DNA of 64,000 bases from Halobacterium noricense (GTDB lineage Archaea; Halobacteriota; Halobacteria; Halobacteriales; Halobacteriaceae). The stretch spans positions 1 through 64,000 of the forward strand of contig NZ_CP089469.1 in the NCBI RefSeq assembly GCF_021233435.1. The letters are read 5' to 3'. The notes under the pieces were generated by a model, which worked only from the letters and a program-made list of their open reading frames with translations, made no database searches and was not told the origin of the DNA. Made by a program: the position numbers and the translations under genes. Of the stretch, positions 15,380-48,754 are shown piece after piece; position 1 is the stretch's first letter; each line of letters starts with the position of its first letter.

Positions 15380-15788
15380 TCAGAACATTTCTCTGAAGTC
15401 CCGTTCGACGAGACCGTCCTCCAGATACGTGATGAACTCTTGTTTCGTTGGTCCTTGACGGTCGAGTAGATCGTCCCGCTCTGCTCGTTCGAGAACAGCC
15501 TGCGCGAAGTCTGTACAGTGGGATTCATGCTGCCCAGCGTACTTCGAGAGGGCCTCTCGCCAGTGCATATCCAGCTCGAACTCGGCTAATCGAATTTGGA
15601 TCCCGTCTTTCCGTTCGACGTCCAGGTCTTCGAGTTGCTTGAAACGGAGGTTGTTCCGGCGGACCGGCACGATCGAACAGGAAATCCGCTTCACAAATCT
15701 TGAGTCGCCGCTTGATGCCCGCATTGAGCGGAGTGACGACACGGTTGTTCCGCAGCTTTGCGTACGAATGGTCCACCTTAACCAACAC
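15380..15788 (-). pseudogene. Frameshifted hypothetical gene
   Basis: Two overlapping frames together make one protein. The first part (MLVKVDHSYAKLRNNRVVTPLNAG...LFDRAG) continues in the next frame (VPVRRNNLRFKQLEDL...GLVERDFREMF), with the shift at about 15660-15690. Both halves look coding. It could be a pseudogene or a sequencing error; a programmed shift is less likely. The GTG start lies inside the left arm of an inverted repeat (15778-15819). Family not recognised. Confidence 0.55.
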
Positions 15789-15819
15789 AATCGACGCATA
15801 GGGTGATCCTGTTGGTTAA
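15778..15819. repeat. 42-bp inverted repeat, TTAACCAACA family, copy 1
   Basis: Arms TTAACCAACA and TGTTGGTTAA, spacer 22 bp, between divergent genes at 15380-15788 and 15909. The left arm overlaps the start of the minus-strand gene. Confidence 0.85.
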
Positions 15820-16933: not shown

Positions 16934-16974
16934 TTAACCAACGCTAACACCTCATCCCCCACGCTGTTGGTTAA
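16934..16974. repeat. 41-bp inverted repeat, TTAACCAACA family, copy 2
   Basis: Arms TTAACCAACG (last base changed) and TGTTGGTTAA, spacer 21 bp, 33 bp after the stop of the 330-aa gene. Confidence 0.85.
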
Positions 16975-17059: not shown

Positions 17060-17100
17060 TTAACCAACAACGGTGTTTCCGACCGGTGAATGTTGGTTAA
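17060..17100. repeat. 41-bp inverted repeat, TTAACCAACA family, copy 3
   Basis: Arms TTAACCAACA and TGTTGGTTAA, spacer 21 bp. It marks the left edge of a GC-rich gene-free stretch. Confidence 0.85.
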
Positions 17101-22668: not shown

Positions 22669-22708
22669 TTAACCAACAGGACAGGCGATGTAGTTCTCTG
22701 TTGGTTAA
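22669..22708. repeat. 40-bp inverted repeat, TTAACCAACA family, copy 4
   Basis: Perfect 10-bp arms TTAACCAACA / TGTTGGTTAA with a 20-bp spacer, 128 bp before a small zinc-finger gene. The motif TTTCTTTATTCAG, which forms the termini of the element at 26839-27720, occurs 18 bp further on (22726-22738). Confidence 0.85.
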
Positions 22709-27821: not shown

Positions 27822-27863
27822 TTAACCAACAGAAACGCGGTATGACGCGTCAGTGTTGGTTAA
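27822..27863. repeat. 42-bp inverted repeat, TTAACCAACA family, copy 5
   Basis: Perfect arms TTAACCAACA / TGTTGGTTAA, spacer 22 bp. A near half-site (TCAACCAACA) occurs about 70 bp to its left. Confidence 0.85.
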
Positions 27864-33839: not shown

Positions 33840-33990
33840 GTCAACTGCCCCGCGCACGGTGGCGCAGGGCTTGTCAGTGAACTCGGCCTCTCCCGACAGT
33901 TAGTCGGACGGGACGAATCCCCGATTCGGCGTCACTGTTCCTGACTTCAGGGCGAGTTGACTGTCGCCCGTCCGCCGCGACGACTGTAGG
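33840..33990 (-). ncRNA. Probable omega-RNA at the tnpB 3' end (element 1)
   Basis: TnpB proteins use a guide RNA transcribed across the 3' end of tnpB and the element right end. The expected terminal hairpin is visible at 33847-33870; the guide would be the sequence just beyond it. Extent is approximate. Confidence 0.4.
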
Positions 33991-35126
33991 CCGCGACGGA
34001 CGTACCGCCATCCAACATTTTTCGCTCCAACATAGTCCGCATTCGCTGTCGCACCACACTTCTCGCACTCGAACTCCGCCTGCCTGACGCGATTGCCTTC
34101 GCTAGTGTGTCCACACTCGGGACACCGCCGACTCGTGTTCTCCGGATCAACGTACTCAACACTGATGCCTTCCGCGTCAGCCTTGTACTCCACGAGGTCA
34201 ACGAGCTGGCGGTGCGCCCACTGGTGGAACTCTTTCACCGGCGGCGCACGTTCCCTGATGTGTCTCAGGTTCTCAACCGCGATGTACTCGCAGTTATGCT
34301 CCAGTGCTTCCTCGATGATGTCGTTGGCCACGCGGTGGAGGACGTCTCGAACGTATCGGGATTCCCTACCGCTCATCTGCTGAATCGTCCGATGTGCGGA
34401 TTGTGTACCAGTCTGTTGGAGGTTGCCACGTATCCGCTCGAATTCCCGATGGCGGTGTCGAAGTTCCCTGCCGGACGCGAAGTACGCCGTACTGGTGGTG
34501 GCGATGTTGACGATACCGAGGTCAACGCCGAGAACTGTCCTGTCCTCGTCGTCGCCCTGTTGTTCGACCTGTTTCTCGGGCTTCGGTTTGCGAAAGCCGA
34601 GATGCAGGTAGTAGTCGCCATCACGCCGAGAAAGCGTGGATTCGGTGACCTCCCAGTCCTCATCGTTGAGGTACTGGTGTTGGTAGCCATCTTCGTCGTC
34701 AGGCAACGCAAGATCACACCGAATACGGTCGTCAACCGTTGCGAGTGAGACTGTTCCGTCGTCGAATATCGTCATCGTCCGGGTGTCGTATTTCACTGTC
34801 TCGGCGGTGAACTCCGGACGTGATGTCTTGTACTCCTCGTCCAGTTCTTTGATTTCTTCGACGCCGGAGAGTGCGGCTGCGGCTTGGTGGGTGGCGAGGA
34901 TTGCGTGCTGACTCCCGAGACGCGTTTCCTCTCGCACATCGCCGTAGGCGAGGTCTTGGAGGTACGTCTTCCGCGTTTCACCGTGTTCCCATCCGATCTG
35001 GCTGCTGGTGTTGCAGGCAGTTTGCCACTCGTTGATAGTGGCATCAAGCAGTTGCTTCTGCTCGTGGGTGAGGATGGGGCGAGTGATTGCGGTGCGTCTC
35101 AGGTAGTCGTCTGCCACGAGTTTCAA
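33900..35126 (-). CDS. tnpB: TnpB RNA-guided endonuclease, element 1
   Basis: A 408-aa protein of the IS1341-type TnpB family, ancestor of Cas12. The RuvC catalytic residues are present: Asp202 in LGVDLGIVN, Glu285 in IAVENLRH, and Asp364 in ANADYVGAKN. The zinc finger is CPECGHTSEG...CEKCG (335-357). All active-site positions are intact, so it may still cut DNA. It sits next to the mobilisation cassette. Confidence 0.92.
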   Translation of the reverse strand: MKLVADDYLRRTAITRPILTHEQKQLLDATINEWQTACNTSSQIGWEHGETRKTYLQDLAYGDVREETRLGSQHAILATHQAAAALSGVEEIKELDEEYKTSRPEFTAETVKYDTRTMTIFDDGTVSLATVDDRIRCDLALPDDEDGYQHQYLNDEDWEVTESTLSRRDGDYYLHLGFRKPKPEKQVEQQGDDEDRTVLGVDLGIVNIATTSTAYFASGRELRHRHREFERIRGNLQQTGTQSAHRTIQQMSGRESRYVRDVLHRVANDIIEEALEHNCEYIAVENLRHIRERAPPVKEFHQWAHRQLVDLVEYKADAEGISVEYVDPENTSRRCPECGHTSEGNRVRQAEFECEKCGATANADYVGAKNVGWRYVRRGLQSSRRTGDSQLALKSGTVTPNRGFVPSD

Positions 35127-35715: not shown

Positions 35716-35903
35716 TACAGAGGCTTAACAGCCACCACAAGCGAGGCGACCGAAGGATGGGACCCTCACACGGGTCCCGACTGACGGAGCCGAGCGCACG
35801 CCCCCGAGCGGAGCGACGGGGGCATTCGTGATGCGGTAGCGGTTCAATGCGCACTCGTAGATCTCATCGTCTTTCCAGCCATGATCGGCCCGAGACAGCT
35901 ATC

Positions 35904-35945
35904 TTAACCAACACTCGGCGGCAAATGAGAACTCGTGTTGGTTAA
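35904..35945. repeat. 42-bp inverted repeat, TTAACCAACA family, copy 6
   Basis: Perfect arms TTAACCAACA / TGTTGGTTAA, spacer 22 bp, 184 bp upstream of the orc1/cdc6 gene. Confidence 0.85.
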
Positions 35946-36129
35946 TACGTCTCAGAAAATCTGAGGACGCTATTCAGCAACTGACACCCGCCGTTAGCCG
36001 TTACAACCTGCAAACGGTGGATAGACGGATTTGTGCAGTAGATGGGTATTTCGAGTGTACAGTGCCAGGACTGGCAATTTAGATTCAGCATACACAACGA
36101 CTTTTACCCTCGGGTGAAATGTCCGACTC

Positions 36130-37626
36130 ATGACCCGGCCGCAGAAGGATAGCACTCCAGACCAAGCGGAAATCACTGACGACAGTGCAATACCCGATGT
36201 AGACGGCGAATCTGGTGCTGACAGTGAGACTGCTACGGAATCAGATTATGGATCTGCCGAGACTGACCCTGATTCGGACACAGAAGAGGGGAGCAGTACT
36301 AGCGGATTGAATGAGACGATTCGGGATCGCGTCGAGAGCCAACTGAACGAGAAGGATTCGACGACGTCAGTGTTTGCCAATAAGGACCTCGTTCACCCGG
36401 ATACGATCATTGACGCCAATCGCATCGTTGGTCGCGACGAGCAGCTAGATCGGATCATCGAACTACTCCTCCCCGCAGTGAAGGGAGGGCGGCAAGACAA
36501 TATTCTCCAATTCGGCCCCTCTGGAACGGGCAAATCCCTCATCATCAACGCGACTGCCGAGGAGGTCGCGACGCTCTGTGAGAATCGCGGTGTCGACTTC
36601 GGCGTCATTCGCATCAACTGCCAGCGGATCAGCTCCGAGGATAAAGCCGTCTACGCGATGCTGCAGGACGTGTCTGAGAAGACCGGTGCTGAGGTCGGCA
36701 TCAAAAAACAGGGAACGGCAACCTCAGACAAGTACGACCGCCTCTACGAGATCGTCAATGAACGCTTCGAGGCGATCCTATTCATCCTGGACGAGATCGA
36801 CTATCTCACCGGGAATAGCAACGACGACGAGCCGGATTACTCTCGACTGCTCTATCAACTCTCACGCGCTACCGCCGAGGGCGACATCGAAGGCCGGTCA
36901 GCAGTCGCTGCACTCACCAACGACACCCAGTTGATACAGAAATTGGATGGGCGGACAGCCAGTTCGTTCAATCCAGATAACGTCGTGTTCCCCGACTACG
37001 ACGCCACCCAGATTCGAGCCATCCTCGAGCATCGAGAAGATGCGTTCCGTGATGGCGTACTCTCCGGCGATGTGATACCGCTTGCCGCCGCGTTCGCTGC
37101 TCAAGACGAGGGTGACGCTCGGAAGGCAATCGACTTGCTCAGAAAGGCAGGTGAGATGGCCGACCGCGAAGGAAGCGGGACCGTCGAGGAGCGCCATGTT
37201 CGAACTGCACAGGGGAAACTCGACGTCGACCAAGCACAGAAGACGATCAACGGGCTCTCCGCGCAGAAAAAATACACTCTGTACGCCTTGACGTCGGTCG
37301 CTGTTCACGCGACTCGTTCACTCGATTCGATCCCCGGTCCAGTCGCCTATGAGGTCTACAGCTACGTGACCGAGAGCATCGATGCGGTCACGAAATCGGA
37401 CGATTCCTTCCGACGGTATGCAAAGGAATTAGCGTCGTACAACATCATCTCGAAGGATCGGAGCGGCCGCGGGCGCGGACGTGGTGTTCACAACGAGTAC
37501 GCCTTCGCTATCGATCCCGAGACTGTCGAAGAGACGATTGAGCGGGACAGCCGGATAACTGAGATCGAACAGGATTCCCTCCAGCTTGTCGTGGAATCCC
37601 AGCTCGACGAATTCAATAGCACGTGA
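36130..37626 (+). CDS. orc: Orc1/Cdc6 replication initiator
   Basis: A 498-aa AAA+ protein that binds the origin and loads the MCM helicase. The N-terminal 80 residues are acidic and low-complexity. Then Walker A GPSGTGKS (129-136), Walker B FILDEIDYL, the sensor-2-like GDARKAIDLLRKAGE, and a C-terminal winged helix. The stop TGA lies at the junction with the tnpB element right end, so the last residues may have been altered by that insertion. An origin-like region lies 1.6 kb away, beyond the insertion. Confidence 0.93.
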   Translation: MTRPQKDSTPDQAEITDDSAIPDVDGESGADSETATESDYGSAETDPDSDTEEGSSTSGLNETIRDRVESQLNEKDSTTSVFANKDLVHPDTIIDANRIVGRDEQLDRIIELLLPAVKGGRQDNILQFGPSGTGKSLIINATAEEVATLCENRGVDFGVIRINCQRISSEDKAVYAMLQDVSEKTGAEVGIKKQGTATSDKYDRLYEIVNERFEAILFILDEIDYLTGNSNDDEPDYSRLLYQLSRATAEGDIEGRSAVAALTNDTQLIQKLDGRTASSFNPDNVVFPDYDATQIRAILEHREDAFRDGVLSGDVIPLAAAFAAQDEGDARKAIDLLRKAGEMADREGSGTVEERHVRTAQGKLDVDQAQKTINGLSAQKKYTLYALTSVAVHATRSLDSIPGPVAYEVYSYVTESIDAVTKSDDSFRRYAKELASYNIISKDRSGRGRGRGVHNEYAFAIDPETVEETIERDSRITEIEQDSLQLVVESQLDEFNST

Positions 37627-37780
37627 CATCCTCTCCGCCGTAAACGGCGGGGCTTCCCACGACAGTGGGATTCCGGCTGTGCCGTAGGTTTCAGTCCGAG
37701 TAGGCCGCGAGCGTCATCTGCGAGTATTTCTCGCTCGTCTCCCGGTAGACTGTGGCGCTGTCACAGGCGCTCCCGTTCCG
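37624..37780 (-). ncRNA. Probable omega-RNA at the tnpB 3' end (element 2)
   Basis: The stem-loop at 37634-37650 and another (CCCACGACAGTGGG, 37655-37668) lie between the tnpB stop and the element end, as in TnpB guide RNAs. Extent is approximate. Confidence 0.45.
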
Positions 37781-38926
37781 AGGCGAGTCATCGCGTTCCG
37801 GTTCCCAAGGAACGCTCTCTCCCCACGGATCTACGCGACTGGCGATATTCGCCGCCGCGTTGATGTCTGCTTGGAACTCAGTTACGTGACAGTCGTCGTT
37901 CGTACACTCGAACTCCGCTTGTGAATTACGAGATCCAATGTGTCCGCATTCATGGCACGTCTGGCTTGTATAGCGCGGGTTCACGTACTCGACCGGGACA
38001 CCGGCCTCGGTGGCCTTATCTTCGACCCGGCCTTGAAGCCGAGCGAACGCCCATGCGTGAAGGCGTCGGTTCATGTACTCCCCGTAGTCCAAGTTCTCGC
38101 GGATGAAGGACAAGTCCTCCATCACAATCACGGGATCGTCGAACTGTCGGGCGTACTCGACGGCTTTTCGAGACGCCTTCTCGACGATATCTGTCAGCGC
38201 GTTCTGATAGTGGTTGAATCGTTCACCGATCCGCCACTCGGCAGCGTCGCGCTCTTGGAGCCGCCGGAGTGTCGTGAACATCTCTTTGCGAAGTGCTCGA
38301 GCACGACTGCCACTCTCGAGCATCGGCTTCGTCGGCGTGTTCCGCTTGAGGGCACAGCCCGTAATCAACGTAGATTCGCCGATATCGAACCCGATGTACG
38401 TCTCGTCACCGTCCATCTCGGGTTCTTCGACCGAGTACGTGACGGTAATGTGCAACACCCAGCTACTCCGGTTCTGCTGGAGCCGGATCTGTCCGGCCTT
38501 GGCACCCTCATTGAGGAGATCGTGCCACAACGATTCTTGCTCGGGGTTGATTCGCAGCGGAATCCAGAAGTTCGTCCCGTAGCCCGGCAGGGGCACGTTC
38601 CAGCAAATCTCGTGGTGGCGAGATTCATCGCGGTCGAACTTCGCGGCTTGATTTGTGAGCCGGATCGGGTGTTCGTCGTCTAACTCGCTGGCGTTGTACG
38701 TTTTTCGGAGCTTCGGGACGTAGCTGCACAGTGCAGCCTTCGCCTGGTAAGGCAGGTCGAACGGCGTTACTACGTCGGACACGCCGTTCATCGTATCCGC
38801 ACCGGAGTCGAACGCATCGTGCAACGCCTCGCGGTAGGTGGAGAGAAGGCGACGGAGACGCACCGCCTTCCCCTCCGTCGGTGGGGCAAGTGTCGCCTCG
38901 AGAGTTTTCGTCACCTCCCCTGCCAT
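37691..38926 (-). CDS. tnpB: TnpB RNA-guided endonuclease, element 2
   Basis: A 411-aa TnpB of a different subgroup from element 1. Active-site residues: Asp181 in IGFDIGES, Glu270 in VIVMEDLSF, Asp354 in FQADINAAAN. Zinc finger CHECGHIGS...CTNDDC (324-346). The C-terminal tail ends DSATVYRETSEKYSQMTLAAYSD, as in many haloarchaeal homologues. Start at MAGEVTKTLE; the open frame further upstream is non-coding. Confidence 0.92.
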   Translation of the reverse strand: MAGEVTKTLEATLAPPTEGKAVRLRRLLSTYREALHDAFDSGADTMNGVSDVVTPFDLPYQAKAALCSYVPKLRKTYNASELDDEHPIRLTNQAAKFDRDESRHHEICWNVPLPGYGTNFWIPLRINPEQESLWHDLLNEGAKAGQIRLQQNRSSWVLHITVTYSVEEPEMDGDETYIGFDIGESTLITGCALKRNTPTKPMLESGSRARALRKEMFTTLRRLQERDAAEWRIGERFNHYQNALTDIVEKASRKAVEYARQFDDPVIVMEDLSFIRENLDYGEYMNRRLHAWAFARLQGRVEDKATEAGVPVEYVNPRYTSQTCHECGHIGSRNSQAEFECTNDDCHVTEFQADINAAANIASRVDPWGESVPWEPERDDSPRNGSACDSATVYRETSEKYSQMTLAAYSD

Positions 38927-38980
38927 ACCACACGATACACATCCTACACACTTTTTGGTTCCGATGCTGTAGAACCGTCT

Positions 38981-39106
38981 GTGAACCGAAGAAACGTTAC
39001 AATCCGGGAAGAGCAAGACGAATGGATCCGGGAGAATCATATCAACCTGTCGAGCCTCGTCAGAGAGTGTATCGACGAACGTATGGAATCCAGTTCCGCC
39101 GATTAA
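38981..39106 (+). CDS. 41-aa RHH-like protein divergent from tnpB
   Basis: A GTG-started small protein, VNRRNVTIREEQDEWIRENH..SSLVRECIDERM, fitting a ribbon-helix-helix DNA-binding unit. Divergent from tnpB across 54 bp and inside the same element, so it is probably a regulator of tnpB. Confidence 0.6.
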   Translation: MNRRNVTIREEQDEWIRENHINLSSLVRECIDERMESSSAD

Positions 39107-39205
39107 CGGCGGTTGCGTAGTCGAGTGACGCGATTCACGCCTGCCCTTTGGGGCGAGATTCTTCACTGTTTAAAAGATGGGACTGGTCGAGGCGGTACGT
39201 AGCCA

Positions 39206-39506
39206 CCCCCCGTTTGCTGATTGTATACTGTGAGAGGCCCCATGTGCAGAATGTATTCTCTCGATCTGGGGTCCGAGCATCATCGACGAACGTCTGACAG
39301 ACGTCATCCCCCCATTTACTGATTGTATCTCGCTACACCAGAGGAAGTCGGAGGTGGTATCGGAGGCAAGAGAACGTTCCCGCATTGCTCATCGAGGAAA
39401 TATTCGATAGACCAGCCGTAACAGCCCAGATCGGCTGTTGAGAACTGAAATCTTCCCAAGCGAACAGTCGCAACCCACCCTCTCCCCCCATTTACTGATT
39501 GTATCT
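39206..39506 (+). repeat. ORB-like repeats R1-R3, forward
   Basis: Three copies of a 23-bp unit, six C followed by ATTTACTGATTGTATCT, at 39206-39228 (three differences), 39308-39330 and 39484-39506 (the last two identical). The C6 run reads as a G-string on the other strand. Confidence 0.8.
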
Positions 39507-39530
39507 CACCAAAAGGCGGGTGGGGGTTGA

Positions 39531-39826
39531 GAGGAGAATCACGACAAGAATATCTAAAACCAGGAAAATCGCGCTTATAGACTTTGAGATAGCTGATCTG
39601 GTGAATATCTGCAACTAGGTTTGTAGATAGAAGGTTTTATGCAAAGGGACTGGTAACAATATCCGTAATACAGTAAGAGCGTAATGGAAAGGAAGATATA
39701 ATTTCTATATGGAGAGGAATGGCTTCGGAACTGTTCTTCGTCTTTATCTCCTCTAAACGTCTTCTAACAGCTGATCTCGACATTTTGGTCATTCTCGATA
39801 TTAGGATGTCCCCCGGCCCTTTCTCA
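39531..39826. other. AT-rich candidate unwinding element
   Basis: A stretch visibly poorer in G/C than its surroundings, with runs such as GAATATCTAAAA and GATATAATTTCTATAT, between the oppositely oriented repeats. No credible gene. Confidence 0.5.
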
Positions 39827-39874
39827 AGATACATTCCGCAAATGGGGGGAGGGGGAGCAATACAATCAGCAAAG
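39827..39874 (-). repeat. ORB-like repeats R4-R5, reverse
   Basis: R4 (39827-39849) is AGATACATTCCGCAAAT then six G, the reverse complement of the R1-R3 unit with a few changes. R5 (39859-39874, AATACAATCAGCAAAG) keeps the core without the G-string. Confidence 0.7.
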
Positions 39875-39902
39875 CAGTCGCTATATTCTCTCCTGCTCAA
39901 CG

Positions 39903-39943
39903 TTACCCCACGCCAGCGATCTATGATTGAATGCGTGGGGTAA
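39903..39943. repeat. 41-bp inverted repeat, TTACCCCACG variant, copy A
   Basis: Arms TTACCCCACG / CGTGGGGTAA, spacer 21 bp, 36 bp past the stop of the gene at 39979. Same length and spacing as the TTAACCAACA family; the arms fit TTAMCCMACR. Confidence 0.8.
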
Positions 39944-39978
39944 CTACAGGGAGAACCACTCGAGGATATCTGGAGCAA

Positions 39979-40371
39979 TCAAGATTCTCGGTTCGCGTTC
40001 ACCGGTGCGATATACTCGTTTTTCCAGGAGTCGCCGTCACGCCATTGCCAGTAAAAGTAGTGATAGCCCGGCTTCGTCTCTTTGATCGTGATGTAGGCTC
40101 CACCAGCTGGGACATCATCGTAGTCTGCTGGATCAGTCGAGACGTCTCGTTCCTCGAGTTCGTTCTGTTTGGCTTCGCTGATCGATTCCTCTTCCTGTTT
40201 TTGGTCAGCCATACGCTCGCGTTCGGCGCGTTTCCAAGCCGCCAGCTTCGTGGCATACGTTGCAATCGCATCGAGTCGATCGGGCGACTGCTTGTCCAGT
40301 GGTTCGAGAATATAGTTCGGTAGCTCTGGCGCTTGCGGTTCTGTTGTGGGCGGCTCTGAAGATTCGTCCAT
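39979..40371 (-). CDS. Hypothetical protein bracketed by TTACCCCACG inverted repeats
   Basis: A 130-aa protein: Pro/Glu-rich N-terminus, an Arg/Glu/Lys-rich helix (LAAWKRAERERMADQKQEEESISEAKQ), and a C-terminal aromatic beta segment (GYHYFYWQWRDGDSWKNEYIAP) like the YxYWR...KYIG motif of small plasmid proteins. The start lies 3 bp from one inverted repeat and the stop 36 bp from the other. It may bind them. Function unknown. Confidence 0.65.
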   Translation of the reverse strand: MDESSEPPTTEPQAPELPNYILEPLDKQSPDRLDAIATYATKLAAWKRAERERMADQKQEEESISEAKQNELEERDVSTDPADYDDVPAGGAYITIKETKPGYHYFYWQWRDGDSWKNEYIAPVNANRES

Positions 40372-40373
40372 AG

Positions 40374-40413
40374 TTACCCCACGTCTCGCTTTGAGTATCA
40401 ATATGTGGGGTAA
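40374..40413. repeat. 40-bp inverted repeat, TTACCCCACG variant, copy B
   Basis: Arms TTACCCCACG / TGTGGGGTAA, spacer 20 bp, 3 bp upstream of the gene at 39979-40371, where it would cover the promoter. Confidence 0.8.
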
Positions 40414-40459
40414 CTCAGACGGCAAGAGACCGAAACGCGTCTGACGTAGTTATTTGAAG

Positions 40460-40477
40460 TCACAGAAAGCACAGAAC
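40460..40477 (+). repeat. 9-bp CACAGAA repeats upstream of parA2
   Basis: TCACAGAAA at 40460 followed by GCACAGAAC at 40469, an exact 9-bp step, ending 2 bp before the first possible parA start. The same 9-mer recurs in the partner gene. Confidence 0.7.
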
Positions 40478-40488
40478 GGATGGAAGCC

Positions 40489-41259
40489 ATGACTCGGAGA
40501 ATCGGGATCACGAATCAGAAGGGAGGTGTGAGTAAAACCACGAATACAATCAACGTCGCTGGCGGGCTCGCTGCCGATGGTGTAGACGTTCTCGCCGTCG
40601 ATATGGACCCTCAGGGATACCTCACGCATCGGCTTGGGTTCGAAGACGAGTACACTTCGGACCCACCGTCGCTATACGATGCGCTTCAGTCGCCCGCCGA
40701 CCACGACGTCGACGATCTCGTTGTCACTCACGAGGAGTTCGATCTCCTTCCGGCCAACATCGATATGTTCCATCTTGAGCAGGACCTCATCGCGAGCGGG
40801 ATGCGTCCCCGGCTGCGGTTGAAGACGGTCCTGGAGAACGCGACCGCGTGGGACGTCGTCCTTATCGATGCGCCGCCGTCGCTCGGCCCACTGAATGATA
40901 ACGTCGTTCTTGCCACCGAGGAACTGCTCGTCCCGGTCGAAGCCGACGAAAGTTCCCAGCTCGCGCTCAATCATCTACTCCGCCAGTTGGATACGCTCGA
41001 GGATAACTACGACACACACGTCGATGTCCTCGGTCTCATTGTTTCGAACGTGGCCTATCCGCTGGACAATGAACAGCAGGCGGCCATTGACTGGTTCAAC
41101 GAGCGTTTCGAAGGACGCGTCGGGGTGTGGACCGTTCGAAGCCGGGCAGCAATCAAGCGGGCAGTGAAAGACCAGGGTTCGGTGTTCGCCGAAGACGCCG
41201 AGGAAGTCGATATGACCGACGTGTATGCGCAGATAGCTGCGGAGGTGGCCGATGAGTGA
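40489..41259 (+). CDS. parA: ParA-family partition ATPase (locus 2)
   Basis: A 256-aa ATPase with NQKGGVSKTT (the usual GVGKTT has Ser in place of Gly), Walker A' DMDPQGYLT, and VVLIDAPPS. It probably partitions the replicon whose origin lies just upstream. It overlaps the partner gene by 8 bp. The start is taken at MTRRIGIT; an ATG at 40480 would add three residues. Confidence 0.93.
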   Translation: MTRRIGITNQKGGVSKTTNTINVAGGLAADGVDVLAVDMDPQGYLTHRLGFEDEYTSDPPSLYDALQSPADHDVDDLVVTHEEFDLLPANIDMFHLEQDLIASGMRPRLRLKTVLENATAWDVVLIDAPPSLGPLNDNVVLATEELLVPVEADESSQLALNHLLRQLDTLEDNYDTHVDVLGLIVSNVAYPLDNEQQAAIDWFNERFEGRVGVWTVRSRAAIKRAVKDQGSVFAEDAEEVDMTDVYAQIAAEVADE

Positions 41260-41635
41260 CGAAATCGACGAACGTCTGAGCCGTCGGTTTGACGACGACC
41301 AGGACGACGAGAACGAGACCATTTCTGAGAAGTCACAGAACGACATGAATTCTAGTCAATCAGGGGCCGAGAGGAAGTCACAGGCTTCACAGAGAGCACA
41401 GAACATCAAGAAGGAATGGAATGTGCGGAGTTTCTACCTCGATGACGGCCTCGATAGTAATCTCACGACGGCGTTCAAACGACTGGATCTCTCGCTTTCG
41501 GAGGCTGACGCCGAGGTCAATCTCAAGAAGACACGGCACTTCTACCCATTGATCGTCGAACTCGGTCTAGAACGCTTGGCGGAAATGGACGTCACAGAAG
41601 TCACAGAACGATTGGACGACGAAGATTCAGCATAG
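41252..41635 (+). CDS. ParA partner protein (locus 2)
   Basis: A 127-aa acidic protein, homologous to the partner at 863 over the C-terminal 80 residues (NIKKEWNVRSFYLDDGL...RHFYPLIVELGLERLAE). The N-terminal linker differs and follows its own DNA repeat. It probably binds the CACAGAA sites and stimulates ParA. A C-terminal fragment of a near-identical gene lies at 43644-43751. Confidence 0.8.
   Translation: MSDEIDERLSRRFDDDQDDENETISEKSQNDMNSSQSGAERKSQASQRAQNIKKEWNVRSFYLDDGLDSNLTTAFKRLDLSLSEADAEVNLKKTRHFYPLIVELGLERLAEMDVTEVTERLDDEDSA
41333..41404 (+). repeat. 9-bp phased CACAGA repeats inside partner gene 2, linker part
   Basis: TCACAGAAC at 41333, TCACAGGCT at 41378, TCACAGAGA at 41387 and GCACAGAAC at 41396; the intervals are all multiples of 9. 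Read in codon phase as Ser-Gln-x / Ala-Gln-x. Confidence 0.72.
41592..41609 (+). repeat. 9-bp CACAGAA repeats at the 3' end of partner gene 2
   Basis: TCACAGAAG at 41592 and TCACAGAAC at 41601. Here they are read as Val-Thr-Glu, a different codon phase from the copies in the linker, so the DNA, not the peptide, is conserved. Confidence 0.75.
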
Positions 41636-41702
41636 GCGATTTCGATTACTCTCCCACGACACTCTTATGTATGACTGGGACGAAGTAATGAATTGAGGGA
41701 GT

Positions 41703-42011
41703 ATGAGTAAAGCAGAGTCTGAAAAAGTAGTGTCTGTATCGTCGCGCGGCCAAGCGACCATTCCCAAAGAGTTCCGGGAGGAACTCGACATCGACACACC
41801 CGGCCGCGTGAAGTTCGTTCGCACCGAGGAGGGCGAAATCGTCGTCCGTCCCATCCACTCGGTCACAGACCTGCGTGGAGTCTTGGAAGGGAAAACCGAC
41901 GAGCAGGGTCGTTCAGCAGTCGAACGACTGCGGGAGGAACGCGAGCAGGACAAGGCTAGTGAAGAGGAGTTGCGGCAGCGCTACGCCAGTGATGACGAGG
42001 CCGACACATGA
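41703..42011 (+). CDS. AbrB/MazE-type antitoxin
   Basis: A 102-aa protein with a SpoVT/AbrB swapped-hairpin DNA-binding domain (VVSVSSRGQATIPKEFREELDI) followed by a helical tail that would block the toxin. It overlaps the PIN gene by 4 bp. Likely represses its own operon. Confidence 0.88.
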   Translation: MSKAESEKVVSVSSRGQATIPKEFREELDIDTPGRVKFVRTEEGEIVVRPIHSVTDLRGVLEGKTDEQGRSAVERLREEREQDKASEEELRQRYASDDEADT

Positions 42012-42436
42012 CAGAGGGGACTGACATTCCCGAGACGATTATCTTCGACGCCGAACCACTCATCGCCTATTTCTGCAACGAACCAGGGAGCGACACCGTC
42101 GAGACGTACGTCGACGCCGTCGAAGGCGCGGCCGATGGATACATCTCAGCGATCAACCTCGCCGAGGTCCACTACGTCGTGCGTGCAATCGACGGCGAGG
42201 AACGCGCTGATGCTGTCGTCGACGTCCTCGAGGAAAGCGGCATCCGTCGCGTCGATACCGAACAGACCTGGGCGTCAGCAGCCGACTTCAAATTCCGCTA
42301 CGCTCCAGCGCTCGGTGATGCCTTCGCGCTCGGGACTGCAGCACACGTCGACGGGATGCTCCTGGTCGGTGCCGACGACGACTACGACGACGTCACCGAC
42401 GTCCCAATCACTCGGTTCCGGACCGAACCGGCATAG
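42008..42436 (+). CDS. vapC: PIN-domain ribonuclease toxin (VapC-like)
   Basis: A 142-aa PIN-domain protein. The acidic metal-binding residues are visible: Asp in IIFDAEPLIA, Glu in INLAEVHY, Asp in ALGDAFALGTA, Asp in LVGADDDYD. VapC toxins cut tRNA or rRNA; the target here is unknown. Coupled to the AbrB-type antitoxin, a likely plasmid-stabilising module. Confidence 0.88.
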   Translation: MTEGTDIPETIIFDAEPLIAYFCNEPGSDTVETYVDAVEGAADGYISAINLAEVHYVVRAIDGEERADAVVDVLEESGIRRVDTEQTWASAADFKFRYAPALGDAFALGTAAHVDGMLLVGADDDYDDVTDVPITRFRTEPA

Positions 42437-42463
42437 ACCCTGGATCTCGTCCCATAGTGGCCG

Positions 42464-43339
42464 CTATGAGTGCTCCTCTGTCCGCTCTTCGAGAAACTCT
42501 CGCAGTTTCGATTCGAAAGACGGTGGAGTAGCCCCGAACGTTGACGCTGCAGATTCGACCACTTCGTCAGTCTCGGCTTCCTCTTGTATCGTTCCCAGTC
42601 CGTAGAGCACTGTGCGGACGACCTCACTGTAGAATTCCTCTTCGTCGTAGCAGAATTGACAGTCGTTTCGCCAGTAGTCGGGGACGAACTGCACACCGAG
42701 TGCCTGGTGTTTGGGACAGATTCCTTTGCGAACCTGCCCGATGTTTCGGAATTCGACCTCCCACGTTCCGTCAGGGGCGATCTCAACGACGAAGTACGCG
42801 CCGAGAAGCGCGTCTGCACCATGGTCTGCCGTTCGGTAGAGGAATGCGGTATTGAGAGCCTTGTTCTTGTAGCGACCGGTGTGTATATGACCAGAGAAGT
42901 ATGCCTTCCCCGCGAAGTGTTCCAGCAGTTCGGGGTGCCAGTAGTGATTCACGAGGATTGTCTCGTCTTCAACTAGTTCGGGATTCTGCGTGAATGTCTC
43001 TCCAGCAACGGTGATACTGTCATCTTCGGGGATGTACGTCCCTGGAAGGTCGTAGTCTTGGAACGGCTGTTCCGGGCCGATTGCCCCGTCCCGATTCCCC
43101 CAGATGTAGAGGAGCTCTCCCCGCTCGTGGAGCGTCTCGAAATACGGCGTGACCGCATCGAGCTGTTCCCGCCCCTCGTCGACGCCATCAAACCATGCGT
43201 TCGTGATATCGCCGACGTGAATTACGAAGTCGAATTCCTCGCCTTCAGTACCGTCGACGACCCGCTCCAGTGAGTCGACATCCCCGTGGTTGTCTCCCAT
43301 ACAAAGAAGTCGGAGCGTCTCATCATCGTTAGTCGTCAT
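42464..43339 (-). CDS. Calcineurin-like metallophosphoesterase
   Basis: A 291-aa enzyme with all five metallophosphoesterase motifs: MGDNHGD, HVGDITN, GNRDG, VNHYWH and SGHIHTGRY. A C-terminal zinc-binding region follows (CPKHQAL...CQFCYDEEEF). YfcE-like, but with added C-terminal domain. Start at MTTNDDE. Convergent with the VapBC-like pair. Substrate unknown. Confidence 0.85.
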   Translation of the reverse strand: MTTNDDETLRLLCMGDNHGDVDSLERVVDGTEGEEFDFVIHVGDITNAWFDGVDEGREQLDAVTPYFETLHERGELLYIWGNRDGAIGPEQPFQDYDLPGTYIPEDDSITVAGETFTQNPELVEDETILVNHYWHPELLEHFAGKAYFSGHIHTGRYKNKALNTAFLYRTADHGADALLGAYFVVEIAPDGTWEVEFRNIGQVRKGICPKHQALGVQFVPDYWRNDCQFCYDEEEFYSEVVRTVLYGLGTIQEEAETDEVVESAASTFGATPPSFESKLREFLEERTEEHS

Positions 43340-43476
43340 TAGTTGACTCCCCGTACTCACTCAGGTGTATAGAAGACCACGTTCACCGTCAAGGAGATAT
43401 CTCATAACAGTCTCTCACTGCTATTCTTGCTAGTCCTTCTCTCCTTAGTGCGAAGCCCCTCTCTGGTTCTTCTGCA

Positions 43477-43499
43477 AGATACATTCAGCAAATGGGGGG
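43477..43499 (-). repeat. Orphan ORB-like repeat R6
   Basis: AGATACATTCAGCAAAT followed by six G, an almost exact reverse copy of the origin repeats, 3.6 kb away from the others and next to gene fragments. Confidence 0.7.
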
Positions 43500-43506
43500 T
43501 GCGATA

Positions 43507-43587
43507 GATGCCAGCCGACTCCAGTACATCTTCATGCTGCGCCGCCTCGAGCTGGTGCAAAGCCTGGTGGATGAGCCGGCCAATTCC
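43507..43587 (+). pseudogene. Fragment of HVO_A0114-type antitoxin gene
   Basis: Encodes DASRLQYIFMLRRLELVQSLVDEPANS, the match of DTSRLQRVLTPRRLELVRSLMEEPAES in the gene at 43882. No start, no end: a remnant. It lies between R6 and a degenerate ORB-like sequence (CCCCATTTCACCGATT, 43586). Confidence 0.65.
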
Positions 43588-43643
43588 CCATTTCACCGAT
43601 TTTCGCTACGCGTGATCGGTGAACCACTTGCTGTGAACTCACG

Positions 43644-43751
43644 AAGATGTGCCACTTCTACCCGCTGATCGTCGAACTCGGCTTGGAACGCTTGGCGGGA
43701 ATGGAAGTCACAGAAGTCACAGAACGATTGGAAAGCAAGGATTTGGGATAA
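43644..43751 (+). pseudogene. C-terminal fragment of a ParA partner gene
   Basis: Encodes CHFYPLIVELGLERLAGMEVTEVTERLESKDLG, the end of the partner at 41252. Both 9-bp repeats (TCACAGAAG, TCACAGAAC) are kept. No functional protein is expected, but the fragment could still act as a weak partition site. Confidence 0.8.
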
Positions 43752-43881
43752 TTGCAGAGGGCGGATACCAGCGTTGTTCATTCACCACAACAACCCTCTA
43801 CCATACGCGCGTTGTCCTACATGGACAATACAGATGCCCCGATGTAGGCGTCAAAAATCCTCGAAGAGGTCGATCCCATCC

Positions 43882-44330
43882 ATGAGCAAGCATTCGCCTG
43901 ACCACCTGCACGAATCCCCGGCGGACGCCGAGTATTCCTCGACGCTCCGAATCACGTCGACGCCGTTCGAGGAGCACACGGAGAGTGTGCTGAACCGCGC
44001 TGAGCGCTGGGAGCAGGGCGAAGCGGTGCCCACGTCGTCAACTTCCAGGACACCAGCCGGCTCCAGCGCGTTCTCACGCCGCGCCGCCTGGAGCTGGTAC
44101 GGAGTCTGATGGAGGAGCCAGCCGAGAGCATCCGCGCCCTTACCGACCGCCTCGACCGGGACGTCCGTCAGGTTCACGACGACCTGCAGATCCTGAGCGA
44201 GTACCGTATCGTTCACTTCCGCGAAGCGGGCAGCGCGAAGCAGCCCCACGTTCCCTACGACACGGTGAAGATCGAGGTCGAACTCACTACGTCGGTCGGT
44301 GACACCTCAGAGTCGTCGACGTCCGCGTAG
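43882..44330 (+). pseudogene. Frameshifted HVO_A0114-type DNA-binding protein
   Basis: The first part (MSKHSPDHLHESPADAEYSS...RWEQGEAVP) and the rest (HVVNFQDTSRLQRVLTPRRLELV...KQPHVPYDTVKIEVELT) are in different frames; one base is missing near 44030. Rejoined, it is a full wHTH of this family. It is followed by a 50-aa partner-like gene. Antitoxin-like, probably inactive. Confidence 0.72.
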
Positions 44331-44372
44331 CCGTCCACAAGCTTATTCCACCCGAGCGCCGACATTTCATCA

Positions 44373-44525
44373 ATGAGTCGCCACTCTGCTGGCGATGACC
44401 GCAAGAGCGATGCCGAGGACGGGGGTCGTCCTGAGGTTCCCGAGGGCATTCTTCGCGGTATTGAGGACATCGCCGAAGGGAATACAGCGAGCAAAGAGGA
44501 TCTCGAGTCTGTCCTGAAGTACTGA
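44373..44525 (+). CDS. 50-aa hypothetical protein
   Basis: Encodes MSRHSAGDDRKSDAEDG...GILRGIEDIAEGNTASKEDLESVLKY. Acidic and helical, with a sensible ATG 42 bp past the antitoxin-like pseudogene. It may have been part of that toxin-antitoxin unit. Confidence 0.5.
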   Translation: MSRHSAGDDRKSDAEDGGRPEVPEGILRGIEDIAEGNTASKEDLESVLKY

Positions 44526-44744
44526 CTGACGTTTCCTGAGACAGAGATGAGCTACGTATCACTGTCGGCCGTCGGACGAAGAGACGAGGGTCATCTTTGC
44601 TGGTGAATCCGATTTCACTCACGAGGCCGTTCGGACTTAGCTCATTGTCGAACTCTACAAAGCGCTGTCCAACTCCTAACACACGTCATCGACACCCAGT
44701 TTGCGCTCGTATCGCCAGTCGAGCGATTCGTGGTACTGCTTTTA

Positions 44745-45261
44745 TACCGCTGAACAGGCGCAATACCACGGCCTTCAGGCCGTGGATACGCCCCGCCACT
44801 TCGGAGAGAACCCACGTTCGACAGCACTCTGAGTTTCGGGATACCGACGTTTAAGTGACAGGCACCCCTATTACTGGATAGGAATCGGTCGGAACGGAGC
44901 GGATTCCGAACCGTCCTTCGGAGGCGGCCTGTCCGCCCACGTAACGAGGCAGTATCCGAAAGAGCAGTCGGTGAACGCCACATCCTCGACGGGTGTGCCA
45001 ACGTGCCGACTGCTCAAAGCAAACCAGACGATACCCCCGACTCCGTTGACGCCTGCTGGCGTCCCCGTGGCCAAAACAACACGGGGACGCCAAACACGGT
45101 TGAGGATAGGGGTACCGGCGGGTTGGCACTGCCAGCAGTCCACCAGTCCGATATTGTGGGACTATCCGTGCCCGAAAGGCCTGGTAGTCCGGTGATTGGG
45201 CTGCGAACCTGAAACTCCCACCGCTCGGGATTCCTCCGCGTTTACGCGGAGGAGGATGTCA
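44745..45261 (+). mobile_element. tnpB-less IS200/IS605 relic
   Basis: Left hairpin CCACGGCCTTCAGGCCGTGG (44766-44785) and right hairpin CCTCCGCGTTTACGCGGAGG (45233-45252) ending GGATGTCA, like the right end of element 2. About 450 bp between contain no intact gene. Probably a deletion derivative. Confidence 0.6.
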
Positions 45262-45609
45262 ATCGGCTTCGTCGACATTGTTGAGCGCACTATTCAGTTC
45301 GAAGAGTTCCTGGACGACGTCACTCTTAGCGACTCGGTAGCGACGAGGCGACGTGTTTGGGACCTCCTCGACGATATCGGTCTCCAGTAGGAGATCGATG
45401 TAGTTGCTGACCGTCTGCCGAGTGACGCCGGCGTGATCGGCGAACTCCGTCTTGTTGAACTCCCGACCGGGAGGGAGGGTGAGGATGGCGTCAAGGAGGA
45501 TAGGGACGCTCTCGTGCTGAAAGAGATGGAGGACGCCGCTCGGGTTCTCAAGGCGAGCCTCCTTAGTGTCCTTCTCCTCCGCCGGGTGCTTCGGCGTTGA
45601 CTCGCTCAT
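45259..45609 (-). CDS. wHTH transcriptional regulator
   Basis: A 116-aa protein with a winged helix (EFNKTEFADHAGVTRQTVSNYIDLLLETDIVEEV) and an acidic tail. Its TGA stop coincides with the right end of the IS relic. Start at MSESTPKHP. Divergent from the 105-aa gene at 45704. Target unknown. Confidence 0.8.
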   Translation of the reverse strand: MSESTPKHPAEEKDTKEARLENPSGVLHLFQHESVPILLDAILTLPPGREFNKTEFADHAGVTRQTVSNYIDLLLETDIVEEVPNTSPRRYRVAKSDVVQELFELNSALNNVDEAD

Positions 45610-45703
45610 GTTTCTAGTGTGCCGGTCGGCGTACATAGTTGTTTGTTTTGGCGTAAACGCTCGTTAACGCACACTTATCAGAGAGGGGTGAAGATAGGGG
45701 AAT

Positions 45704-46021
45704 ATGCGCAAGCCATCGGTGAAATGCGCTCTCCTCGCGGCGATGATAGCTGAGCACCGGTGGGGGTCACCGATCGTCGAGGAGAATCTCCTCTCCATTT
45801 CCGCCATCGAGACGAACGACTATCCCACCGCGAGCAAGGTCTTCGATGAGCTCCGATCCGCTCTCTACATCATCAACCGGGGGAAGCGGGGCATCGAACT
45901 GAACAGTGGCGAATTCGGAGCGCTCGCTGACCGTCTCTATCACGAGTGCGGGTGGGAACCGTTCGAAATCAAGAGTCGGCTGAAGCACTACGAGGGGTGG
46001 GATAATCACGAGTGGGCGTAG
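45704..46021 (+). CDS. Hypothetical 105-aa protein
   Basis: A helical protein (VKCALLAAMIAEHRWGSPIVEENLLSI...ALADRLYHECGWEPFEIKSRLKHYEGW). Divergent from a wHTH regulator that may control it. No family recognised; small size and position suggest an effector of a toxin-antitoxin or regulatory pair, which is not proven. Confidence 0.6.
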   Translation: MRKPSVKCALLAAMIAEHRWGSPIVEENLLSISAIETNDYPTASKVFDELRSALYIINRGKRGIELNSGEFGALADRLYHECGWEPFEIKSRLKHYEGWDNHEWA

Positions 46022-46085
46022 TCCCGCGAGAGCGTATTCGACGAAGGAGACACTGTCTTCCGAGGAAAACGCCGTTCGAACCACA

Positions 46086-46346
46086 CTACTCGTCCGAGAG
46101 CCACGGCGGCGGGCCGTCTTCTCTGATTTCGGCGTCGATCCCGAGTTCCTCGAGGCACGCCTCGGGGTCATCGATCTCCTCGCCGCGACCGACGTGGCTA
46201 TCCAGAGCGTCGGCAAGTTGTCGGAGCGCCTCGGCTTCCGTGTCGCCAAAGGACGCCACCCCCGACTCGACGTGTCGCGCAGTCATGCGACCGTCGTTCT
46301 TGTGGATGAACTCGACGCCCGAGGGCGGGTCCGATACCGTCGCCAT
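46086..46346 (-). CDS. HicB-like antitoxin
   Basis: An 86-aa protein with the HicB-like core (HKNDGRMTARHVESGVASFGDTEAEALRQLADAL). HicB usually follows or precedes HicA, an RNA-targeting toxin. No HicA is intact here; ten codons like its N-terminus (VVRTAFSSED) appear just downstream (about 46050-46080). Start at MATVSDPP; GTG at 46352 also possible. Confidence 0.72.
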   Translation of the reverse strand: MATVSDPPSGVEFIHKNDGRMTARHVESGVASFGDTEAEALRQLADALDSHVGRGEEIDDPEACLEELGIDAEIREDGPPPWLSDE

Positions 46347-46397
46347 ACACACAGATACGCGCCGAGAGTGACGTAACCCTTCCCCTGCGCCACGGTC

Positions 46398-46439
46398 TTA
46401 ACCAACAGACACCGCCCTCTACCCCCGAGTGTTGGTTAA
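46398..46439. repeat. 42-bp inverted repeat, TTAACCAACA family, copy 7
   Basis: Perfect arms TTAACCAACA / TGTTGGTTAA, spacer 22 bp. The right arm overlaps the stop codon of the upstream gene (46436) and the repeat lies 52 bp before HicB. Confidence 0.85.
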
Positions 46440-46930
46440 CCGCTGAGCGCGAGCCCGCCAGCGACCGCCACACCGGCGACCACGACGCCGATCACAAGCA
46501 GGGCGTAGTTCGCTATTGGGTTCGCGGCCGTGACGACGTCGAGCGTGTACTTCTCGCCATGCACGGGCGCGAACGGCCGAACGCCAGTCGGTGTGAGCAC
46601 GTCAGCGAGGATATGCGCCACCACGGCGAGCGTCCCGACGACGGCGCCGAACAGGCCCGTTCCGAGCGCAGCGAGCACGCCACGGGACGTCCCCAGTAGT
46701 AGGCCACCGACACCGGCGACCGCGCCGACGGCGAGCGCGAACCACACGGTATGTGTCGGTCCTCGGTGTTTCACGCCGGGGATTCGTTGGTCGACATCAG
46801 GGAGCATGGCCCCGCCAACGACAACGGCACCACCGAGCACTCCGAGCGTGGTGTAGCCAAGCGCAGTCAGGATGAATACAACGGGGGCGTAGGCGACCAA
46901 CGCCGCGCCGTAGTGGCCTTTCTGGTGCAT
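46436..46930 (-). CDS. Membrane-bound metal-dependent hydrolase (YdjM/DUF457)
   Basis: A 164-aa membrane protein with about four helices and the family's metal-site residues: His in MHQKGHYGAAL, the PDVDQRIPGVKHRGPTHT segment, and HILADVLTPTGVRP. Related proteins (YdjM/LexA-regulated) have unknown substrates. Last gene of the integrase operon; it starts 4 bp from the previous stop. Confidence 0.85.
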   Translation of the reverse strand: MHQKGHYGAALVAYAPVVFILTALGYTTLGVLGGAVVVGGAMLPDVDQRIPGVKHRGPTHTVWFALAVGAVAGVGGLLLGTSRGVLAALGTGLFGAVVGTLAVVAHILADVLTPTGVRPFAPVHGEKYTLDVVTAANPIANYALLVIGVVVAGVAVAGGLALSG

Positions 46931-46933
46931 GGG

Positions 46934-47207
46934 TTAGTAGTCCCGAAGCCACTCCGGCCCGCCGTAGGCGTCGACGTAACACCGCCTGTGTGCCGGCTCG
47001 CCCCTCGGGTTCGGCACCGCCTTTTCTAACGGAACCGATTCCCCGCATAGGTCACACTCGGCCGTGTGGCCCGCTTGCCGGGCGTCCGGTGAGAGATTCT
47101 TTGTCTCGACATAGAGCTCTTGGAGCGCGCGTGGCGTCAGCCGAACGAGGACTTTCTCGCGGTCGTCCTCATCTCGCTGTTCCGGCGTGTACGTGAGCAC
47201 CCAATCT
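46934..47207 (-). pseudogene. Zinc-finger gene, 3' part, split by ISH3
   Basis: Encodes WVLTYTPEQRDEDDREKVLVRLTPRALQELY...CDLCGESV...HRRCYVDAYGG. Removing the IS and one 5-bp duplication joins it in frame to the part at 48607. GTG at 47200 could still start an 88-aa product. Confidence 0.85.
47203..47207. repeat. Target-site duplication, left (AATCT)
   Basis: AATCT directly before the element, repeated at 48607-48611. Confidence 0.85.
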
Positions 47208-48606
47208 CAGTACTTCACAAAGCCGGTTAGTTAGAACGTCTGCTTGCTGAGGATGTGTACTCCAACAAGCAAGCAGACGGTGAGATTCACGAGGACCAAC
47301 TTCTTAACTTTCTCGTCAACCGCCTTGACGAGGAAGTTCCAATCTCTTTAGCAAATAACGCTGAAATCGCTGCTGAGGACATCTATGAGGTCCTCGTCGG
47401 CGCTTGCGCCGACGGGACCTCTGTCTCTACGCTCTGTGCGTCGAGCCAGAATACACCCACTGCGAACACGATCCTCTACCATCTTCGGACGAAGTTCGAG
47501 CCGGAACGGCTCGAACGAGTCGCTAACACGCTCCTTCGGAAGGATATCGATGAACTGCTCCCCAAGCAGGTGGAGGTCTGCGCAGACCTCCACCTGCGAC
47601 CCTACTACGGTGACAAAGCCGACACAGACGGTCTCTATCACTCGGTAGCGAAGCGTGGAACCACCGCGTTCCACGCCTACGCCACACTCTACGCGCGTGT
47701 GACGAACAAACGCTACACGCTGGCGGTGCGCCGTCTCGAAGACGGCGACACCGCCAGCAGCGTCCTCGCTGAGTTCCTCGGTATTCTCGACGGCCTTGAC
47801 ACCGAGATCAAGGCCGTCTACCTTGATCGCGGATTCTACGACAGCAAGTGCCTCACGCTGCTTCAGACGCACGACTACGCGTACGTGATCCCAATCATCC
47901 GGTGGGGTGAGACGATTCAGCAAGAGCTCTCGGAAGGGTGGAGTCGTGTCATTCAGCACGATCTGACAGGGAAACTCGACGGCCACAGCTGGACCGTCGA
48001 GTTTCCCGTCTACATCGACTGTACGTACCTAAACGGGAAGTATGACGAGAACGGTGTGGCGCGTCACGGCTACGCCGCTGACGCGCCGTTCATCGACTCA
48101 CCACGCGACGCTCGATACCACTACACCAAGCGGTTCGGTATCGAGTCGAGCTATCGATTGTTTGAACAAGCGATAGCGACAACAACCACACGAGATCCAA
48201 CGGTACGGCTGCTGTACGTCGTGGTGAGTCTGCTATTACAGAACGTCTGGCGGTACCTTCACTACGAGTATGTGGCGACGCCCCGCCGAGGCGGGCGTCG
48301 CCTCTGGTGGTGGCCGTACAAGGAGTTCGTCAATATGGTTCGACGAGCTGCGTGGACGGCCCTCGCGGTGCGTCGGGCCGTCCCCGCGAATCGGCCACCT
48401 GACGACCGGTTCCACCGCTAACCACCGACCGAGCAAGCCAGCAAAGTGAGTGGCAACGCTGTCGCGTCGGCGGCTGACCGCCGCCGACAGCGACAGCTCT
48501 CCGTCGATCCGTCCGTAATCATCTCATCGAGACCATCAGTACAACCGCTTCGAGACAGAACTTAGGCCGCAGAAACAGCTAGCTGTGGATGCTTTGTGAG
48601 GTACTG
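47208..48606 (+). mobile_element. ISH3-family insertion sequence, copy 1
   Basis: A 1399-bp element. Left end CAGTACTTCACAAAGC and right end GCTTTGTGAGGTACTG are inverted repeats (one mismatch). AATCT is duplicated at both sides. One complete transposase gene. It interrupts a zinc-finger gene on the minus strand. Confidence 0.92.
47255..48421 (+). CDS. ISH3-family transposase
   Basis: A 388-aa DDE transposase of the haloarchaeal ISH3 family. Recognised by DLHLRPYYGD, KRGTTAFHAYATLY, RLEDGDTASSVLAEF, AVYLDRGFYD and KRFGIESSYR. Starts with GTG (position 47255) and appears complete. The second copy at 63088 is about 85-90 % similar by eye. Probably able to transpose. Confidence 0.93.
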   Translation: MYSNKQADGEIHEDQLLNFLVNRLDEEVPISLANNAEIAAEDIYEVLVGACADGTSVSTLCASSQNTPTANTILYHLRTKFEPERLERVANTLLRKDIDELLPKQVEVCADLHLRPYYGDKADTDGLYHSVAKRGTTAFHAYATLYARVTNKRYTLAVRRLEDGDTASSVLAEFLGILDGLDTEIKAVYLDRGFYDSKCLTLLQTHDYAYVIPIIRWGETIQQELSEGWSRVIQHDLTGKLDGHSWTVEFPVYIDCTYLNGKYDENGVARHGYAADAPFIDSPRDARYHYTKRFGIESSYRLFEQAIATTTTRDPTVRLLYVVVSLLLQNVWRYLHYEYVATPRRGGRRLWWWPYKEFVNMVRRAAWTALAVRRAVPANRPPDDRFHR

Positions 48607-48611
48607 AATCT
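48607..48611. repeat. Target-site duplication, right (AATCT)
   Basis: Second copy of the 5-bp target duplication. Confidence 0.85.
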
Positions 48612-48754
48612 TGGCCCGCTTCGCCGTCGCCGCCCGGTCCCAGCGAAATCGTCTGTGCGAGGTCGTCCGGAACGTAGTGCCACTCGTTATCCCTGAACCG
48701 CGGGTAGTTCCCCGCCGGTCGCGGGTTCTCGGGATCGACGTCGTCCTCGGTCAC
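48607..48754 (-). pseudogene. Zinc-finger gene, 5' part, split by ISH3
   Basis: Encodes MTEDDVDPENPRPAG...GDGEAGQD; the present frame then runs into the element until 48536. Rejoined with 46934-47207 it makes a protein of about 138 aa with a C-terminal CxxC...CY zinc site. Its start overlaps the integrase stop by 4 bp. Confidence 0.85.

Follow-up and report, generated by a model that had tools for sequence, protein, structure and literature searches.

A plasmid-borne haloarchaeal protein family with class-specific inverted repeats at its promoters and across its replicons

The first 64 kb of C2 (hereafter the window), a 369-kb replicon in the 3.3-Mb, three-contig genome of Halobacterium noricense, contain a gene for a 130-aa protein, denoted X here, that is bracketed by two inverted repeats and lies among replication and partition genes (Table 1). 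This arrangement raises the question of what the repeats are for and whether X is the protein that recognizes them. The pattern TTAMCCMACR matches 18 times in the window, compared to 0.32 matches in shuffled sequences, and these matches make up nine paired sites. Three of the four arms that flank X read TTACCCCACG and the fourth one (40404-40413) reads TTACCCCACA. The two repeats had been noticed in a previous sequence-only reading of this DNA, which placed them 3 bp before the start and 36 bp past the stop of the gene; the layout is as described but the measured distances are 2 and 35 bp, and the upstream repeat in its extended form, AGTTACCCCAC...GTGGGGTAACT, abuts the ATG. Genome-wide, sites with arms of this type (class B, TTACCCC) are limited to the two places that flank X and their copies in a near-identical 19.7-kb duplication (window 35720-55446, corresponding to C2 189803-209529, 154,083 bp apart) that contains orc1/cdc6, X and parA. 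The other type (class A, TTAACCAACR) is represented by 31 sites in this genome (C2, 21; C3, 3; chromosome, 7), compared to none for the reversed-pattern control. All seven chromosomal sites fall within 1,172-1,254 kb of C1, an 80-kb stretch that is probably an integrated plasmid because it carries its own orc1/cdc6 and X genes.

Table 1. Coordinates of the genes and repeats discussed in the text (window positions unless another locus is given)
Feature	Position	Strand	Remarks
9-bp direct repeats	1-63, 966-1055; 40456-40485, 41374-41421, 41588-41617, 43704-43742		
Class A site	15778..15819		intergenic
Class A site	16934..16974		32 bp past a stop codon
Class A site	17060..17100		intergenic
Class A site	22669..22708		intergenic
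Class A site	27822..27863		intergenic
TnpB-like gene	33900-35126	-	IS605 OrfB/Cas12f TNB domain
Class A site	35904..35945		between genes, 5' of orc1/cdc6; probable origin region
orc1/cdc6 replication initiator	36130..37626	+	adjoins X; Pfam Cdc6_lid 9.6e-25, Cdc6_C
TnpB-like gene	37691-39166	-	IS605 OrfB/Cas12f TNB domain
Class B inverted repeat, 41 bp	39903..39943		downstream of X
X, 130-aa protein, class B	39979..40371 (including stop)	-	N-terminal helices, acidic linker, C-terminal three-stranded beta-sheet
Class B inverted repeat, 40 bp	40374..40413		over the X promoter, between X and the divergent parA
parA, ParA ATPase	40492..41259	+	divergent from X; alternative upstream ATG at 40480; Pfam AAA_31 2.3e-35
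127-aa protein, presumed ParA partner	41252..41635	+	overlaps the parA stop; phrog_29165 2.2e-16
Class A site	46398..46439		over a stop codon; TTAA of the site gives the TAA
TGTAACA...TGTTACA repeat	L124 ~6233-6283		similar position in L075, L078 and L084

A family profile search detected relatives of X in 88 of 116 sampled Halobacteriales genomes. Their genes usually lie on plasmids and close to orc1/cdc6, and several genomes have many copies; those listed as giving no match are mostly single-contig assemblies. The spelling of the arms follows the class of the protein. Arms TTAACCAACA go with the C-terminal motif KEINDNRYYYWQWREGDKVRSKYKGPV in class A, TTACCCCACR with KETKPGYHYYYWQWRDGDSWKNEYIAPV in class B, CTAACCAACA with KTIDDREYYYLQWREGDKVKSQYVAPV in class D, and TTGTGCAACA with a cysteine-bearing DUF6788-type C-terminal motif in class E; the remaining classes are C (CTAACCCACA) and F/G (arms TTACCWAACA). 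Class A sites are present in 63 of the 65 genomes with a strong homologue and in 5 of the 28 with none, and class B sites in each of the 5 genomes that encode class B proteins and in 1 of the 111 others, although the genomes are related, so that these counts are not independent trials, and the Fisher values (6.8e-15 and 3.7e-8) ignore this relatedness. The two genomes that have a strong homologue and lack class A sites encode class B proteins and contain 6 and 2 class B sites, respectively. Used as predictions, class E arms taken from a few promoters yielded 2-35 sites in each of seven genomes that belong to one family and none in six others; class D arms were found in five genomes (14, 6, 16, 3 and 3 sites) and not in seven others, and class F/G arms in four (9, 5, 2 and 1 sites) and not in ten others. 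The reversed-pattern controls were 0 throughout, as was the shuffled-arm control. The sequence-only reading took the two arm types of the window for two specificities of one recognition system; this idea is supported and can be extended to at least five specificities, with the class of the arms following that of the protein. What that reading could not reveal is that sites of this kind are spread over entire plasmids and linked to the X family. Furthermore, the class D arms are unchanged whether or not the protein has the usual N-terminal LPxY segment (L023 versus L103 and L104), and this persistence despite a different N-terminus suggests that it is the C-terminal domain that reads the arms. 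Class A sites were also observed in 56 stretches of virus-classed contigs, which are fragments and encode no X in 30 of the 31 records tested; these contigs may be plasmid fragments or elements that use the X protein of a resident plasmid.

Upstream of nearly every plasmid-type homologue, an inverted repeat of 40-49 bp is located close to the start codon: in 34 of the 35 class A loci, mostly 10-17 bp from the start (including L077, counted as positive, for which one listing gave a chance repeat and another one a true class A site), in all 18 class B loci, mostly at 0 bp (one of these is a pseudogene with a weak repeat), in all 5 class E loci at 2-5 bp, in one class C and one class F locus, and within 120 bp in two of four class D loci; on C3, where the class D gene is a fusion, the distance is 1 bp. 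The sole class A exception is plasmid PHS2 of Halobacterium salinarum R1 (L222 7900-8010), where X is preceded by the right half-site only and inserted DNA seems to have taken the place of the left arm. Homologues that consistently lack repeats were not encountered except for a divergent, mostly chromosomal subfamily with the C-terminus SVTEIAGTEYYYYQWREGDEIRSETV, in which none of the seven loci has one. In a leaderless haloarchaeal gene, the TATA box lies in the region that is bracketed here by the arms of the X-promoter repeat, and in classes B to E the spacer of this repeat is AT-rich at the expected TATA position. Because the arms bracket that position in most classes, X likely represses its own gene, in agreement with the autoregulation proposed from the window. 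The mode of repression may differ in class A, considering that the start codon is mostly 10-17 bp away and that, in some loci, a clear TATA-like element is found further upstream of the site. Another inverted repeat, TGTAACA...TGTTACA, encloses a symmetric BRE-TATA-like element at four class A loci (L124, L075, L078 and L084), roughly 85-140 bp ahead of X, where X may share a bidirectional promoter with a divergent winged-helix gene. At five loci on different plasmids, the class A X gene is preceded by a further class A site at a distance of approximately 2.5-3.6 kb.

The other possibility raised for the window, namely that the 130-aa gene is a mobile cassette, would make the repeats recombination sites, similar to attC or pdif. 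Repeats on both flanks of the window gene, and the many sites directly past stop codons, would fit such a role. A comparable arrangement exists at C3:49777-51009 (L023, L051), where a class D domain forms the C-terminus of a longer protein and class D sites lie on both flanks. However, only the upstream repeat is general and most class B homologues have no other; the downstream class B copy is confined to a sub-lineage of Haloarcula, Halobacterium and Halorussus (five loci), with the same ParA/Orc context where this was read, and it is because of this confinement that the cassette idea is unsupported. Nor does the 19.7-kb duplication end at a repeat (an inverted repeat was looked for at its borders and none is there), the context around flanked genes is unchanged, and a non-exhaustive search found no recombinase tied to the sites. 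A cassette function is thus very improbable, and an upstream repeat of the homologue's own arm variant is what most plasmid-type members share. The spacers of the sites are more similar to each other than shuffled ones, in a set that includes orthologous sites, and we did not count this as evidence of mobility.

What kind of protein X might be was addressed by structure prediction and database searches. Window X has no match in Pfam or NCBIfam and no significant match among PHROGs, and a literature search outside subscription papers found no description of the repeats, the X protein or DUF6788. The AlphaFold2 model obtained with 30 relatives (pLDDT 90.4, pTM 0.65) consists of helices 19-26 and 30-62, a short helix, and strands 93-100, 103-112 and 115-123; the predicted order is accordingly a long helix followed by three strands, without a beta-alpha-alpha order. 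Judging from this model, X would dimerize via the long N-terminal helix. Structure searches with the whole model and with the C-terminal domain alone gave no solved structure above noise, and a profile search against solved structures gave chance matches only. The sheet of X resembles the arm-type DNA-binding domains of P4-like integrases (3jtz, 3rmp; 2.1-2.4 Å over 35 residues), but with a Z score of only 2.1, which is tied with unrelated folds and within noise, this likeness is a lead only; X also differs from these integrases in having no integrase catalytic domain. A link to DUF6788 (PF20586), a domain without assigned function, comes from class E, in which a relative of X scores 34.9 bits against a gathering cut-off of 27.2. 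At an E value of 0.01, 2 of the 32 aligned family members match DUF6788; window X gave no match up to E 0.1, and the scanned members of classes A, C and D gave none.

The anatomy of the sites is consistent with binding by such a dimer. Among 146 distinct class A sites, the spacers are 20-23 bp, mostly 21-22 bp, which puts the arm centres 31-32 bp, or three helical turns, apart; whole sites are 40-43 bp long, with the two 10-bp arms on one face of the DNA. The final base of the class A arm is A or G on each side independently (25 of the 146 sites are mixed), and the sixth base of the class F/G arm is A or T, again independently, with 10 of 17 sites mixed. Since a base change in one arm of a hairpin would have to be matched in the other, this independent variation makes the sites look like a pair of half-sites for protein and not like an RNA hairpin. 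A role of the repeats as RNA hairpins or terminators would draw on their enrichment directly past stop codons; yet sites also occur between divergent genes, pairing is not kept at the variable positions and the spelling is fixed rather than compensated, all of which leaves this explanation with hardly any weight.

On the five replicons or regions analysed, every scattered site is intergenic, with an overlap into a gene of 4 bp at most, compared to 28% gene-free placements expected. A gene 3' end is found no more than 50 bp away for 48% of the 42 scattered sites, compared to 9% of random intergenic positions, and a start no more than 100 bp away for 13 of the sites (31%), compared to 19% of the positions; both contrasts are overstated to some degree because the control included our own gene calls and long unannotated gaps. 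Some sites donate a stop codon through their TTAA. Site spacing along the replicons looks irregular, so a simple periodic organiser is not favoured. These placements bear on the possibility that X regulates transcription plasmid-wide, with the scattered sites serving as operators of a regulon to which the X gene itself would belong. The overlap of the repeat with the core promoter region at X itself and the excess of sites within 100 bp of a start agree with a regulon, but most scattered sites lie off promoters: those between tandem genes are mostly nearer to the 3' end of the upstream gene, several are between convergent genes, and 41 of the 42 keep a distance of 47 bp or more to the nearest start, the exception preceding a gene that ends in an X domain. 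On balance, a regulon seems unlikely.

A role in replication would be suggested by the neighborhood. The most common neighbor of X is Orc/Cdc6, within 5 kb in 26 of 37 loci, and class A sites are found at orc genes, both in the window (35904) and in the putative integrated plasmid, where the site at C1:1172648 is about 350 bp from the Orc gene at C1:1173045. Binding of X to its sites might titrate X or handcuff plasmid copies and so set copy number or incompatibility together with Orc1/Cdc6, and titration control is indeed known for an origin of Haloarcula hispanica (PMC3936714). The origin recognition boxes (ORB) of haloarchaea are likewise inverted repeats near orc1/cdc6, but they contain a G-string and are clustered in origins (PMC3528665, PMC3936714), whereas the X sites lack the ORB and G-string and are found all over the plasmids, in the present case across 369 kb; replication control by X is therefore quite improbable. 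In the window, two TnpB-like genes flank orc1/cdc6, one of them located between it and X.

ParA is near X in 9 of the 37 loci, and those X plasmids whose full sequence was read encode ParA as well. The pairing of parA with a following gene for the 127-aa protein is repeated for the parA at window 63-812 and for that of plasmid G002:C2, giving three cases. Both ParA operons of the window are flanked by, or contain, 9-bp direct repeats of two distinct sets (AAACGANNN; GAAGTCACA), which look like centromere iterons private to each ParA system. We considered X as a direct partner of ParA and think this unlikely, given that ParA is followed by the 127-aa gene with its own 9-bp repeats; because ParA has this partner gene and these repeats, X is probably a separate system.

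We propose, with a probability of roughly 0.5, that X is a plasmid-borne, site-specific DNA-binding dimer that represses its own gene and through its dispersed sites organises or segregates the plasmid. Two subunits joined through their N-terminal helices would place their C-terminal three-stranded beta-sheet domains on the two 10-bp arms, about three helical turns apart. At its own gene, X would occupy the site that brackets the core promoter and repress its own expression, and on the dispersed, mostly promoter-free sites it would mark and organise the replicon and contribute to stable inheritance by clustering or segregating copies. The different arm spellings would serve as separate specificities, allowing several such systems to coexist in one cell. 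Several observations count against an organising role. X replicons also encode ParA, in some cases together with a ParA partner gene and 9-bp repeats, so that ParA may already take care of segregation; class B has one to few sites per replicon, and many dispersed sites are therefore not a property of every class; the virus-classed contigs contain class A sites without X, though they are fragments; and the 13 scattered sites within 100 bp of a start leave room for regulation of neighboring genes. More broadly, and at somewhat less than even confidence, the family could be an order-wide, previously undescribed plasmid maintenance system of haloarchaea, separate from ParA/ParB and Orc1/Cdc6, in which a beta-sheet binder and a readable protein-to-site code give replicon lineages their identity and dispersed sites organise their inheritance. 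Little has been settled about how haloarchaea segregate their several large plasmids and minichromosomes and keep them apart. A small unannotated protein family is now paired with presumed target sites that can be read from sequence across most of the order, including the lab strains Halobacterium salinarum and Haloarcula marismortui, so that plasmid maintenance, incompatibility and protein-DNA recognition become directly testable in these archaea. DNA binding also becomes a likely role for at least those DUF6788 members that are related to X.

Among known systems, two are similar in design. SegB, of the SegAB system of Sulfolobales, binds palindromic sites directly before its own operon and at dozens of further positions on the chromosome (PMC12284271), and X resembles it in being archaeal and in having sites, to which it presumably binds, both at its own gene and scattered over the replicon. 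However, SegB is a ribbon-helix-helix protein that recognizes a 13-bp motif at chromosomal sites, 83% of which are intragenic, and is encoded in an operon with SegA (PMC12284271), whereas X is predicted to combine a helix with a three-stranded sheet and has 41-bp sites that are intergenic and plasmid-borne; moreover, the low frequency of ParA near X and the divergent window parA with its own partner differ from a SegA-type operon. KorB of the IncP-1 plasmid RK2 has about a dozen inverted-repeat O_B sites on the plasmid, 12 according to the title of a study cited in PMC11790492, and a joint role in repression and partition (PMC11790492). Like KorB, X is plasmid-encoded and has several inverted-repeat sites dispersed on its own replicon (one or few in class B), but KorB is a CTPase clamp of the ParB family and X a protein of 130 aa in which searches of Pfam, NCBIfam and PHROGs matched no ParB-type domain (HTH, CTPase). 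Thus, X is not a detectable relative of SegB or KorB, and the likeness is one of working principle, with a plasmid-encoded protein that, by analogy with these two, would use the same kind of site at its own promoter and across its replicon.
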